Shown here piece after piece: positions 16,419 through 20,766 of a DNA stretch of 33,861 nucleotides. How positions within the stretch are numbered: the stretch's first letter is position 1; every line of letters starts with the position of its first letter. The stretch is from assembly GCA_963169875.1 (NCBI GenBank), contig CAUJEL010000065.1:1-33861 (forward strand), in the 5' to 3' direction. Origin of the DNA: Candidatus Zhuqueibacterota bacterium. GTDB taxonomy: Bacteria; Zhuqueibacterota; Zhuqueibacteria; Residuimicrobiales; Residuimicrobiaceae. The translations under genes and the position numbers were made by a program. The notes beneath the pieces were generated by a model. It was not told the origin of the DNA, ran no database searches, and was given only the letters and a program-made list of their open reading frames with translations.

Positions 16419-16445
16419 CAGATGAAGGACAACACAGGAACCAGC

Positions 16446-17783
16446 ATGCCGGGCATCAATGAATTCACTGAAAATATCCTCGACTCCCTCAGCGAGGGCG
16501 TCATCACAGTCGATAAAAATTTCAAGATCAACTATTACAATCGCGCCGCGGAAACAATCACCGGGTTAAGCCGTCACGAGGCGATTGGTAAATTCTGCAA
16601 GTACGTGCTCAATTCCGACGCCTGCACAGCTCGTTGTCCCATTGCAGCGGTGCTGCGTCGGGGCGCGTCCATGTTCGATTTCAATGCGGTCGTCTCACAC
16701 GCCAATGGCATGCGTATTCCGGTGAAGATGAACGCATCTGTCCTCACCAATCCGGACGGTGAACCCATCGGCGGCACCCTCACCTTCCGCGACATGAGCG
16801 CCATCGAATACATCCAGGAACAATTGGTTCATGACAGCCAATTCCATGGACTTGTCGCGCACAGCAAATCCATGCGCGACATCTTTTCATTGATCGAAGA
16901 GATCAGCGACAGCCCCGCCTCGGTGCTGATCCAGGGCGAATCGGGGACCGGCAAGGAGATGATCGCCAATGCGATTCAGGCCACCAGCAGCCGCAAGACC
17001 ATGCCCTATATCAAAGTCAACTGCGCCATCTTTCCGGCACAACTGCTCGCCAGCGAGCTGTTCGGTCACGTCAAAGGCGCTTTCACAGGCGCGATGCGCG
17101 ATCGCCAGGGCCGTTTCGAGCTGGCCGACAAAGGCACCATCCTTCTGGATGAAGTGGCGGAAATGACCCTGGAGATGCAGCTGCATCTGCTGCGCATTCT
17201 CCAGGAAGGCACCTTCGAAAGGGTCGGCGAATCCCTGACGCGACGGGTCAATGTGCGCGTCATCGCCTCCACGAATAAAAATATCCAGAAAGCCATCACC
17301 CGGAAAGAGTTCCGTGAGGATCTTTTCTACCGTCTCAATGTCATCCCCATCCATGTGCCGCCGCTGCGCGAACGCAAGGAGGATATCCCCCACCTTGTTC
17401 GCCACTTTATGCACAAGTACTCCCTCATTTACAACCGCAACATCGAAGATATCGAGGATGGGGCACTGGATGCCTGCCTCAATTACAACTGGCCCGGCAA
17501 TGTGCGCGAACTGGAAAACAACATCGAATATGCCTTTGCACGCACCAAAGAGGAATCCGTCATCCGGGCTAATAAACTCCCGCCGCATCTGCGCGGCAAC
17601 GCGCTTCAGCCGGATACCCCGCCCGATGACGCAGCCCCCGCGGCGCCCCTCTCTGCGGAGGCCCGGGAATTGGCGAAGCAGCTGCAGCAGCACCACTGGA
17701 ACCGCTGCGAAACCGCCCGCGCACTGGGCATCGGCCGCACCACGCTGTGGCGCAGGATGAAAACACTCGGCCTGGAGAAATAG
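16446..17783 (+). CDS. Sigma54-dependent activator, PAS-AAA+-Fis HTH
   Basis: 445 residues. N-terminal PAS domain (about 5-115) with a Cys cluster, Cys51, Cys60 and Cys64 in CKYVLNSDACTARCPI, similar to PAS modules thought to sense redox state or bind a metal cofactor. AAA+ domain (about 135-370): Walker A GESGTGKE (164-171), the sigma54 contact GAFTGA (211-216), Walker B ILLDEVAE and R-finger region FREDLFYRLNV. The Fis-type helix-turn-helix is at the end (ETARALGIGRTTLWRRM). No receiver domain, so the PAS itself is the likely sensor. I start at ATG 16446, which has AGGAA 7 nt upstream; an ATG at 16422 in frame lacks a ribosome site. The sigma54 promoter just downstream is its obvious target. 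Confidence 0.95.
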   Translation: MPGINEFTENILDSLSEGVITVDKNFKINYYNRAAETITGLSRHEAIGKFCKYVLNSDACTARCPIAAVLRRGASMFDFNAVVSHANGMRIPVKMNASVLTNPDGEPIGGTLTFRDMSAIEYIQEQLVHDSQFHGLVAHSKSMRDIFSLIEEISDSPASVLIQGESGTGKEMIANAIQATSSRKTMPYIKVNCAIFPAQLLASELFGHVKGAFTGAMRDRQGRFELADKGTILLDEVAEMTLEMQLHLLRILQEGTFERVGESLTRRVNVRVIASTNKNIQKAITRKEFREDLFYRLNVIPIHVPPLRERKEDIPHLVRHFMHKYSLIYNRNIEDIEDGALDACLNYNWPGNVRELENNIEYAFARTKEESVIRANKLPPHLRGNALQPDTPPDDAAPAAPLSAEARELAKQLQQHHWNRCETARALGIGRTTLWRRMKTLGLEK

Positions 17784-17880: not shown

Positions 17881-17896
17881 TGGCACAGCGATTGCA
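17881..17896 (+). promoter_or_regulatory. Sigma54 (-24/-12) promoter
   Basis: TGGCACAGCGATTGCA: TGGCAC, 5-bp spacer, TTGCA, matching the consensus at every conserved base with correct spacing. Start of transcription is predicted near 17907. It lies 97 bp after a sigma54 activator gene. Confidence 0.9.
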
Positions 17897-17908: not shown

Positions 17909-18388
17909 ATGCACTCCGAACCCCTGTCAGAAATGCTCGGCAATCAGTATTTCATGGCGCGCAATTATGCAGCGGCTGCTGTACAATTGCAGGGCGCCCT
18001 GGAAAAACACCCGACCAGCAAAGCCATCCGCCGCCGTCTCATCGTTTGTCATACCCAAACCGGTATGATTCAGAAGGCTTTTTCCCTTTTCAGGTCACTT
18101 GTCAAAGAGGACGTCGATTTTATCATCAACACCGACCCGGTGGATGATGATTGTCCGTGCCAGGAACTGGTGAGAGAGGGCGAATGTTTGAGCCCGACCG
18201 CCGAGACTTCAGTTGACTTTTATATCAAAATGGGCATGTTGTGGCTTTTTTGTGATCTGCAGCGCGCCGTGGAGTGCTTTGCGCGGGCAGCCGCAGCTTC
18301 ACCCGGCGATCAGGCGGTTCTGGAGATATCCCAACTCCTCACAAAACGGCTGAAAGCAAGCTATTCCAGTAAAATCACAAACCATTGA
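17909..18388 (+). CDS. TPR-type small protein of the cytochrome operon
   Basis: 159 residues, soluble, no signal peptide. Two helical repeats typical of tetratricopeptide motifs are visible: LGNQYFMARNYAAAAVQL with ALEKHPTSKAIRRRL, and MGMLWLFCDLQRAVECFARA with AAASPGDQAVLEI. An acidic, Cys-bearing loop (DDDCPCQELVREGEC) lies between them. First gene of the sigma54 operon, 41 bp before the cytochrome. It might be a scaffold or assembly factor. The ATG at 17909 is only 2 nt after the predicted transcription start; ATG 17933 (MLGNQYF) leaves a 26-nt leader and may be the real start, though neither has a clear ribosome site. Confidence 0.8.
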   Translation: MHSEPLSEMLGNQYFMARNYAAAAVQLQGALEKHPTSKAIRRRLIVCHTQTGMIQKAFSLFRSLVKEDVDFIINTDPVDDDCPCQELVREGECLSPTAETSVDFYIKMGMLWLFCDLQRAVECFARAAAASPGDQAVLEISQLLTKRLKASYSSKITNH

Positions 18389-18429: not shown

Positions 18430-18633
18430 ATGCGTCGCAGACAATGGTTGATCTTGCCCCTTTTCATGGTGGTGCTTCTGCTGCAATTCTGCGCGGAAAA
18501 GAAGACGCCGCAGGGGCCACAATTTGCTTTCATCGAAGGCAACAGCTGTGTGGATTGCCATACCAGCGAAAGCGCCCTCAAGAAAGTCGCCACGCCCTTG
18601 CCGCCGCCTTCCGGTGAAGCGGGTGAAGGCTGA
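18430..18633 (+). CDS. Multiheme cytochrome lipoprotein, 5' segment before the in-frame TGA
   Basis: Begins MRRRQWLILPLFMVVLLLQF then Cys: a lipoprotein signal with lipobox LQFC. The first heme motif CVDCH follows at about residues 40-44. The frame meets TGA at 18631-18633 after PPPSGEAGEG. The continuing frame (18634-19713) is the same frame and holds ten more heme motifs but no export signal. Since c-type heme is attached outside the cytoplasm, the halves make sense only as one protein. AAGGAAAGG precedes the ATG. See the stop-codon entry for the two explanations. Confidence 0.85.
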   Translation: MRRRQWLILPLFMVVLLLQFCAEKKTPQGPQFAFIEGNSCVDCHTSESALKKVATPLPPPSGEAGEG

Positions 18634-18666
18634 GGCGGCTCTGTGTCTCAGTTGGAGGCATGGCAG
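18631..18666 (+). other. In-frame TGA with a SECIS-like hairpin
   Basis: TGA, then 10 nt, then TGTCTC-AGTTG-GAGGCA (18644-18660): a 6-bp stem (one G-U pair) and a 5-nt loop containing GU. CTG (18641-18643) and CAG (18664-18666) can extend the stem past a 3-nt bulge. In E. coli fdhF the minimal SECIS is a 17-nt hairpin 11 nt after UGA with GU in its loop. The fit is suggestive, not proof. The alternatives are a nonsense mutation or a read error. Confidence 0.4.
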
Positions 18667-19713
18667 ATGGTTTATGTCAATTCCAGTTTTTTGAATTCGA
18701 AACATGGCGCGTTGGGATGCACTAATTGTCACAGTGGCAATCCCGCGGCGGCTGGCAAAGAGGATGCCCATAACGGGCTTATCGCGGCACCGAGCAACAC
18801 CCACAACCAGGAAATCTGTGGCAAATGTCATTACTCGATCTCCACGGTGCACGCGAGCAGTCTGCATCGTACCATGCAGGGCTATTACCGCCGCATCGAA
18901 AATCGCTTGGGGTATGATATTTCAGGCGATCCGGAAAAAGTTGCGCATTTTGAAAAAGAGTGCGGCAAGTGTCACGCCAGCTGCGGCCAGTGCCATGTTT
19001 CGCGGCCAGCGTCCGTCGAAGGCGGCTTTATCAGCGGTCACAATTTTCAGGCCTCGCCCAACATGCGCGAAAATTGCACAGCGTGTCACGGCAGTCGCGT
19101 TGGTGCCGAATACCTGGGCGAAAATGAAGGCATCAAAGCGGATGTGCACTGGATTCCCAATGTCAAACGCTGCGACTTTTGTCATACGGGCGATGCCATG
19201 CATGCCTCCTCACCGGGCGCTGAATACCGTTATGAGGACAAGGACATGGTGACCTGCGAGCAGTGCCATGGTGCAAAAAGCGCATCCAACCAATACCACA
19301 AGACTCATTGGGATGATCTCTCCTGCCAGGTGTGTCATTCCCAGCCCTACAAGAATTGTAACAGCTGCCACACCGGCGGTGCGGGCATCACCGGCAGTTC
19401 CTACATGTCGTTCAAAATCGCCAAAAATCCGCTCCCCGGCAACAGGCGTTACAAGGCGGTCACCGTGCGCCATATTCCCATCTCGCGCGACACCTACGCC
19501 AGCTGGGGCATACCTGATTTGCCCCTGTACAACAGCGAACCGACCTGGAAATATACAACGCCCCACAACATCCAGCGCTGGACCGCGCAGACGGACACGA
19601 CCGGTGGAAAATCCTGCGGCGAGAAATGCCACAACGACAACTCGATCTATCTCACCCTGGCAGACTTGGCTGCTGAAGAAGTGGAAGCAAACCGTCATTT
19701 ATTATTGAAATAA
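18634..19713 (+). CDS. Multiheme c-type cytochrome, 3' segment (10 heme motifs)
   Basis: Continues the cytochrome frame after the TGA. Heme-binding motifs in order: CTNCH, CGKCH, CGKCH, CGQCH, CTACH, CDFCH, CEQCH, CQVCH, CNSCH and one CX3CH form, CGEKCH, near the end. With CVDCH upstream the whole protein would carry eleven hemes over 427 residues, a wire-like electron carrier at the outer face of a membrane. Two motifs overlap closely (ECGKCHASCGQCH). A GTG at 18643 with GAGG 7 nt upstream could act as a false start. The next gene encodes rhodanese domains, so the electron donor or acceptor may be a sulfur compound; this is inferred from context only. Confidence 0.9.
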   Translation, partial: GGSVSQLEAWQMVYVNSSFLNSKHGALGCTNCHSGNPAAAGKEDAHNGLIAAPSNTHNQEICGKCHYSISTVHASSLHRTMQGYYRRIENRLGYDISGDPEKVAHFEKECGKCHASCGQCHVSRPASVEGGFISGHNFQASPNMRENCTACHGSRVGAEYLGENEGIKADVHWIPNVKRCDFCHTGDAMHASSPGAEYRYEDKDMVTCEQCHGAKSASNQYHKTHWDDLSCQVCHSQPYKNCNSCHTGGAGITGSSYMSFKIAKNPLPGNRRYKAVTVRHIPISRDTYASWGIPDLPLYNSEPTWKYTTPHNIQRWTAQTDTTGGKSCGEKCHNDNSIYLTLADLAAEEVEANRHLLLK

Positions 19714-19770: not shown

Positions 19771-20766
19771 ATGTTGAAACGCGTTGCTCTGGCATTCCTG
19801 GCCATGGCGTTGATTTTCGCCGTTGGCTGCAAAGACGATGATAATCCGGCTGCACCGGCCACCGTCGATGAATTCGCCCTTGTCGCCGCCCTCGGCGATG
19901 CTTACTTTACCAATTACACTTCGACATCCGGCGCGGCTCTGAACATGACCGCCCAGCAGCTTTTCGAGAATCTCCAGGATGGCAATACGGCCAATGACCC
20001 GGTGATCGTCGACTACCGTTCCGCAACAGATTTCGCCACCGGGCATATCCGCGGTGCGGTGAACATCAGCCTCGCCAATCTGGTCGCCAAGATTGATGAT
20101 GGTACCCTCACCAAAGGCAAGACCATCCTCAATGTGTGTTATACAGGTCAAACCGCCAGCGTTGCCACTGCATTTTTAAATCTGATGGGTTTCGATGCGG
20201 TTAATCTGGGGTGGGGTATGTGCGGACTCACCACGGATGGCACCATCAACGGCACCGATAAATGGGCGGCGCAGATCGCCGCGGATGAATTCGCCGGACA
20301 GCTGACTGCGACCGAGTCCACACCGACGCAAACCTATACCTACCCAAATCCCAACAGTGGCAAGAAGACGGCTGCAGAGATCATGAAAGCCCGTTTCGGC
20401 TCCATCACCAGTTCCTGGTCCATTTCCGCGGCCGATGTATTTGCCAATCCGGCCAACTATTTTATCGTCAATTACTGGCCCAAGGCCGAGTATCTCAACC
20501 CCGGCCATATCCCTGGCGCCTATTGCTTCGAGCCCAAGGTCTCTATGACCCAGGCCGCCATGTTGAAAAATCTGCCCACGGACAAGACCATTGTGGTGTA
20601 CTGCTATTCCGGTCAGACGTCCGCTCAGTTGGTGAGTTATCTGGGCATGCTGGGTTACAATGCCAAAAGCCTGATGTTCGGCATGAACGGCTTTGCTTAT
20701 GGCAAAATGACCAAATCAAAGTATGTGCCGCCGGCTACGGATTATTCGGCTATTATTGTTAAGTAA
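19771..20766 (+). CDS. Tandem rhodanese-domain lipoprotein
   Basis: 331 residues. Lipoprotein signal with lipobox AVGC (Cys20), so anchored outside the cytoplasmic membrane. Two rhodanese domains: the first has DYRSATDFATGHIRGAVNI and active loop CYTGQTAS (Cys123); the second has YLNPGHIPGAYCF and loop CYSGQTSA (Cys278). Both catalytic cysteines are present, so both may carry persulfide, unusual since one copy is often inactive. It lies 57 bp after the multiheme cytochrome with its own ribosome site (AAGGAG) and ends the operon before a strong terminator. A role in sulfur-atom transfer to or from the cytochrome is an inference. Confidence 0.92.
   Translation: MLKRVALAFLAMALIFAVGCKDDDNPAAPATVDEFALVAALGDAYFTNYTSTSGAALNMTAQQLFENLQDGNTANDPVIVDYRSATDFATGHIRGAVNISLANLVAKIDDGTLTKGKTILNVCYTGQTASVATAFLNLMGFDAVNLGWGMCGLTTDGTINGTDKWAAQIAADEFAGQLTATESTPTQTYTYPNPNSGKKTAAEIMKARFGSITSSWSISAADVFANPANYFIVNYWPKAEYLNPGHIPGAYCFEPKVSMTQAAMLKNLPTDKTIVVYCYSGQTSAQLVSYLGMLGYNAKSLMFGMNGFAYGKMTKSKYVPPATDYSAIIVK

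Follow-up and report, generated by a model that had tools for sequence, protein, structure and literature searches.

Selenocysteine (Sec) in a multiheme cytochrome was previously supported only weakly. The idea rested on ExtKL (GSU2937-2936; NF040886), listed as the family of Sec multiheme cytochromes in the 2026 catalogue of prokaryotic selenoproteins (PMC13188914). It is encoded by the Geobacter ext operon, which is involved in selenite/tellurite reduction (PMC5877670); the cluster further encodes ExtH, which is rhodanese-like, the porin ExtI and additional multiheme cytochromes (PMC5877670, PMC1914089). The Sec of ExtKL is a prediction, and its discoverers found neither a SECIS element nor non-Sec homologues (PMC1914089). 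The same catalogue includes one GenBank-annotated Sec member of TIGR04315, the family of octaheme tetrathionate reductases (PMC13188914).

The present analysis concerns a gene from a stretch of 33,861 nucleotides (contig CAUJEL010000065.1; hereafter, the window) of a bacterium inferred to belong to the candidate phylum KSB1. The closest public genome is UBA2214, a name that also designates a class within KSB1 (PMC9386943). The gene encodes an eleven-heme c-type cytochrome lipoprotein whose single in-frame UGA codon is very likely read as Sec (Table 1). Together with its homologues from KSB1 and from genomes outside this phylum, it would add to the repertoire a selenoprotein family covered neither by the NCBIfam library of June 2026, in which no model reaches its cut-off for the window cytochrome, nor by the 2026 catalogue, whose 119 prokaryotic families do not include it (PMC13188914). 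The main text of deep-Sep (PMC12013277) makes no mention of cytochromes, and no description of the family was found in the open-access literature searched, subscription papers and supplements being outside that search. It should also be emphasized that a standard gene caller would cut the genes of this family at a false stop codon.

Table 1. Features of the cytochrome locus in the window (L and G numbers designate loci and genomes, C numbers contigs)
Feature	Position	Strand	Basis and remarks
PAS / sigma-54-interacting transcriptional activator	16422..17783	+	PF00158, PF00989, PF02954; adjoins the locus in L086, L087, L088, L090 and L148
Perfect sigma-54 promoter-like site, TGGCAC-N5-TTGCA	17881..17896	+	0 mismatches; 0.07 expected by chance in the window
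TPR protein, probably first gene of the unit	17909..18388	+	Pfam TPR; also 5′ of the cytochrome gene in L086, L087, L088, L090, L091 and L148
Eleven-heme c-type cytochrome lipoprotein gene, very likely Sec-containing	18430..19713	+	427 aa, Sec68; reading of the ORF and homologues
Heme-1 motif CVDCH, 5′ of the UGA	18547..18561	+	Residues 40-44; kept in 23/23 aligned Sec sequences
UGA codon very likely read as Sec68, motif GEGUGG	18631..18633	+	28 homologous genes with TGA, 2 with Cys
bSECIS hairpin	18641..18663	+	Stem 18643-18649/18655-18661, outer pairs to 18641/18663, loop AGUUG
Tandem-rhodanese lipoprotein, proposed functional partner	19771..20766	+	PF00581, two domains; two CY(T/S)GQ active-site loops

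The cytochrome gene, its UGA codon and its homologues

The initial annotation had described an eleven-heme open reading frame in which a lipoprotein signal and a first heme motif (CVDCH) precede a single in-frame TGA, codon 68, and ten further heme motifs follow it in the same frame. This description held, except that the motifs 3′ of the TGA comprise nine CXXCH and a last one that is a CX3CH (CGEKCH, C396-H401), the whole cytochrome carrying 10 CXXCH and one CX3CH. The lipobox is LLLQFC (C21). Sec68 lies between heme 1 and heme 2 in the context GEAGEG-U-GGS; what the initial annotation called a Gly-rich linker is a conserved motif (GEGUGG) and not a neutral linker. In the alignment of Sec sequences (n = 23), the His of all 11 heme motifs are conserved in every sequence, and position 68 is the only conserved thiol or selenol besides the 22 heme Cys. 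Outside the heme motifs, these sequences share eight invariant and two nearly invariant His. Since ten conserved free His are available for eleven hemes, it is possible that one heme has no His ligand.

The aligned position was examined in all the homologues found, in KSB1 and in genomes outside KSB1 (the latter classified as "same domain"). It is a UGA at 28 loci (17 from KSB1 and 11 from outside the phylum), a Cys at two (L005 and L006), a Leu at one (L075) and an Arg at one (L076), and the segment is deleted at three (L018, L019 and L142). The 28 UGA and two Cys constitute a classical Sec/Cys pair at a homologous site. The flanking motif, mostly G-E-G-U-G-G, persists down to about 32% overall protein identity. 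A gene 79% identical to that of the window is found in bacterium UBA2214 (G001, contig DCUM01000182.1), which belongs to the same genus; a scan of contigs with the window protein matched this congener alone, the wider sampling being provided by genome searches. A plasmid collection searched with the cytochrome protein and a search of PHROGs gave no match. In one genome from outside the class (G065), the gene occurs as two paralogues: L075 has Leu at the site and L077 has Sec, and a rhodanese gene adjoins L077 only.

The initial annotation had left a nonsense mutation or a read error as the alternative. A nonsense mutation, a pseudogene or an assembly error in the window's genome would be in line with the window alone, which shows a single TGA in one draft genome. 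However, the same TGA is present at 27 other loci, with the remainder of each gene intact. Conservation of the TGA in independent genomes excludes both an error in the reads and a nonsense mutation restricted to this genome, and this whole class of explanations is practically eliminated.

The hairpin and the decoding of the UGA codon

The claim that a hairpin close to the bacterial SECIS (bSECIS) geometry follows the TGA also held, the pairs at 18643-18661 extending to 18641-18663. With the U of the UGA taken as nt 1, pairing in the window spans nt 13-31, and the UGA-to-loop spacing is 16 nt. The bSECIS model (PMC13188914) specifies: (i) an apical loop of 3-9 nt with a G in its first two positions, (ii) a stem of 4-16 bp, (iii) a distance of 16-37 nt from the UGA, and (iv) an energy of -7.5 kcal/mol or lower. 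The window hairpin, with an energy of -9.5, satisfies every criterion. A hairpin 3′ of the UGA is seen in all the UGA-bearing homologues (28/28) and always fulfils the criterion of a G at the start of the loop. The UGA-to-loop spacing is 16-19 nt in 27 of them; for the remaining one (L074), the script preferred an alternative hairpin and the spacing is 29 nt. In nine of the 28, the best individual hairpin (-5.3 to -7.4) is weaker than the energy threshold of the model.

In the 17 KSB1 genes, 114 cells out of 119 are paired, compared to 68.4 +/- 3.8 after resampling of synonymous codons (z = 12.1), while four downstream control windows gave no pairing signal (z from -0.8 to 1.0). The KSB1 stem consists of 95.8% standard pairs, and two-sided compensatory changes affect three of its seven pairs, compared to 0.2 in shuffles. 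Codon third positions after the UGA are frozen in this phylum: codon +4 ends with G and codon +5 with T in 17/17 genes, Gln is always encoded by CAG, Pro at +6 always by CCG, and Leu always by TTR although CTN triplets are the majority of Leu codons in these genes. These constraints exceed what the protein requires. The 11 genes from outside KSB1, some of which have a rather different stem (L137, for example, has UCCCCC-GGUC-GGGGGA), likewise show hairpin energies far below those of resampled sequences (z = -8.0; -11.5 for all 28 genes; -2.0 to 0.1 for controls). Pairing is lost or weakened in the Cys gene L005 and in the Leu and Arg genes; the Cys gene L006 retains the hairpin.

Another explanation would be that the UGA is a normal stop, ending a short one-heme lipoprotein, and that a ten-heme protein is then translated from a start of its own, for example the GTG at 18643. 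In its favour, an in-frame GTG four codons 3′ of the UGA is kept in 15 of the 17 KSB1 genes, and the same alternative was raised in 2007 for the Geobacter candidate by its authors (PMC1914089). However, (i) the ten-heme part would lack a signal peptide and hence the export needed for its hemes to be attached, (ii) the GTG is replaced by GCG, CTG, GTT, CCA or ATC in other homologues, (iii) the Cys, Leu and Arg homologues are each a single open frame, and (iv) the selection acting on the hairpin would be left unexplained. This two-gene organization is thus very improbable.

Sec decoding is further supported by the genes found in the window's genome: selA (570 bits), selB (334 bits, over its cut-off) and selD (390 bits). 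The selD gene has its own in-frame TGA, in the context CAG-U-ASK (L078 1480-1560, G000:C41), and serves as an internal positive control for Sec decoding. SelA is missing in two of the UGA-bearing genomes, whose assemblies are only 56% and 73% complete. No tRNA-Sec gene (selC) was found in the window's own assembly; a match of 48.6 bits on G000:C13 was rejected, being an ordinary tRNA of only 74 nt located beside an elongation-factor gene. The region surrounding selC in the congener G001 corresponds in part to G000:C171 (90% identity, 2 kb from its end) and in part to G000:C54 (79% identity, from base 141), and the piece carrying selC falls between these two contigs, in an assembly gap. Tandem 76-base repeats lie near this break (L116 1198-1575; G000:C171, around 39594-39971) and might explain the gap. 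ARAGORN detected a tRNA-Sec with anticodon TCA in all the relatives' loci that were scanned (8/8: L042 1501-1595, L040, L041 and L043-L047), including that of the congener. A 2022 study reported that KSB1 possesses selA, selB and selD and lacks selC (PMC9012183). The tRNA-Sec present in most of the relatives searched settles this small puzzle, the reported absence being apparently a detection problem.

A reading of the UGA as another residue such as Trp or Gly, by suppression or by a change of code, has in its favour that Gly would fit the Gly-rich flanks. However, the residue substituted in two homologues is Cys, the SECIS and the genes selA, selB and selD have been found, and SelD itself relies on this mode of decoding. 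Furthermore, since the neighbouring gene (17909-18388) ends with TGA as its ordinary stop, UGA is not globally reassigned. This reading can be set aside almost completely.

Overall, the checks suggested with the initial proposal of Sec came out in its favour: alignment of homologues showed the TGA at 28 loci, Cys at two and a conserved hairpin, and the sel genes were found in the genome, apart from selC, whose expected position lies in the assembly gap and which was recovered in the congener and in other relatives. We consider it very likely that codon 68 is decoded as Sec. This conclusion relies on comparative sequence evidence, with no protein or mass-spectrometry data; from sequence data alone, the case for recoding could hardly be stronger.

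The locus and the proposed rhodanese partner

In the window, the cytochrome gene belongs to a transcription unit encoding a TPR protein, the cytochrome and a rhodanese. The sigma-54 promoter-like site stands between this unit and the gene of the PAS/sigma-54 activator, which likely regulates it. In many relatives, the unit extends with genes encoding a porin-like protein and further multiheme cytochromes. Close to non-Sec cytochromes, a nine-heme cytochrome is encoded in L091 (7178-8923, minus strand) and L090 (4032-5771, minus strand); that of L091 has a C-terminal tail of the type IX secretion sorting type.

The rhodanese of the window has its active-site loops at Cys123 (CYTGQT) and Cys278 (CYSGQT). 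A rhodanese gene lies directly 3′ of the cytochrome gene in all the Sec loci where this could be assessed (27/27), L074 being left out of this count because its contig ends there. It is broken in both Cys loci: frameshifted in L006 (300-1520) and reduced to a C-terminal fragment in L090, the locus of L005 (8600-9060). In the vicinity of the other five non-Sec loci (Leu, Arg and the three deletions), no rhodanese was found, the search being restricted to 1.5 kb flanks in the case of L018 and L076. In a maximum-likelihood tree from which the N-terminal columns had been left out, the non-Sec genes fall into four distinct groups, indicating four independent losses of Sec, and the rhodanese was lost in 4/4 of them. 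The comparative evidence thus shows that Sec and the rhodanese gene are retained jointly and disappear jointly, although only four loss events are available: a sign test gives p = 0.125 and cannot reach significance with four events, even though the agreement is complete. A functional coupling of the Sec cytochrome to the rhodanese is likely, their physical interaction being inferred. This rhodanese partner is new in the present analysis, and the co-loss gives a specific, testable partner and chemistry, i.e. transfer of sulfane sulfur or selenium to a Sec carried by a heme wire.

Predicted fold, proposed chemistry and known relatives

An AlphaFold2 model of the cytochrome built from 22 rows (pLDDT 72.8) gave only weak matches to hydroxylamine oxidoreductases (Z up to 4.0). 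A second model, built from 30 sequences (pLDDT 82.2), matched 1SP3, a Shewanella octaheme cytochrome known as octaheme tetrathionate reductase (OTR), over residues 89-427 (VIA-align: Z 8.8, rmsd 4.2, 243 aligned). A profile search of the PDB with the cytochrome also ranked this chain first (E 3.3e-10); Foldseek alone found no significant PDB match for the model. Since 1SP3 is the best match both by model structure and by sequence profile, we infer that residues 89-427 form an OTR-like core to which heme 1 and Sec were added as an N-terminal module. This organization is predicted by the model and leans on VIA-align and the profile, in the absence of a significant Foldseek match.

We propose the following mechanism. 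SelB and tRNA-Sec very likely decode UGA 68 at the hairpin just 3′ of it, yielding an exported eleven-heme lipoprotein. In its persulfide form, with sulfane sulfur (or selenium) loaded on the CYTGQ cysteines, the rhodanese would act as donor to the Sec selenolate; electrons would then be exchanged between the heme chain and the newly formed Se-S (or Se-Se) bond. The pair may thus work as a sulfane-sulfur, polythionate or selenium-oxyanion oxidoreductase, the substrate and the direction of the reaction being inferred, and in several relatives it would be connected to additional multiheme cytochromes and to a porin-like protein. The transfer mechanism fits both the OTR-like fold, which is associated with S-S chemistry, and the parallel with the ext operon (rhodanese, porin and Sec cytochrome). 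Sulfur/selenium-transfer chemistry is, on balance, the reading that we favour, but it is inferred and the function is untested. The full explanation, combining Sec decoding, an OTR-like core and a sulfur/selenium redox reaction fed by the rhodanese, is in our opinion somewhat more likely than not, with activity, interaction, substrate and direction all inferred. In a bolder reading, Sec68 would act at a heme, either as sixth ligand of the heme that may be devoid of a His ligand or as a nucleophile facing an open site. It would then be a natural Sec-heme catalytic centre supplied with sulfur or selenium by a dedicated rhodanese. We regard this as unlikely; the model contains no hemes and gives no Sec-heme distance.

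Alternatively, Sec would be decoded but the protein would be an electron-transfer cytochrome of an ext-like selenite/tellurite reduction, with Sec having a redox or metalloid-binding role and the rhodanese acting as a selenium carrier. Several points speak for it: members of the family show distant similarity to ExtM (NF040943; 20/30) and ExtN (NF040967; 7/30) of the Geobacter operon, the association of a rhodanese, a porin-like protein and multiheme cytochromes is common to the loci of several relatives and to the ext operon (PMC5877670), and selenium can be carried by a rhodanese (reference cited in PMC5877670). However, no ext model is matched at its cut-off, the porin-like and rhodanese proteins match no Ext model, and, of this association, the window itself holds only the cytochrome and the rhodanese. 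This role therefore remains a possibility that we rank below sulfur/selenium transfer. Under the latter, preferred reading, the Sec cytochrome and its rhodanese suggest a novel redox enzyme that acts on sulfur or selenium and depends on selenium, an inference whose functional side is untested.

The similarities to ExtM and ExtN are limited (best E of 7e-13 and 2e-11, respectively), far from the cut-offs of the ExtN and ExtM models (200 and 800 bits), the best member reaching 43.3 bits with ExtN, and the ExtN model gave no match over its cut-off in the genomes of 60 relatives. TGA-containing matches to this model in G053 and G050 proved to be ordinary gene ends and not selenoproteins. ExtN resembles the window family by its 10 hemes and its similar size. 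The best matches to both models begin around profile position 30, after the Sec/heme-1 module, which seems to be absent from ExtN and ExtM. The NF040886 model of ExtKL (cut-off 250 bits) did not match the window cytochrome up to E 10, and TIGR04315 (cut-off 375 bits, not reached) matched only one of the 30 members (E 0.0013).

The nearest known systems are ExtKL and an octaheme tetrathionate reductase relative. The octaheme tetrathionate reductases (TIGR04315; 1SP3) contain eight hemes, compared to eleven hemes and an N-terminal heme/Sec module in the window family. ExtKL is, like this family, a predicted Sec multiheme c-type cytochrome (PMC5877670, PMC1914089), but it has five hemes and an unrelated C-terminal half, whereas in the window family there are eleven hemes, the Sec is N-terminal, the SECIS is clear and homologues with Cys exist.
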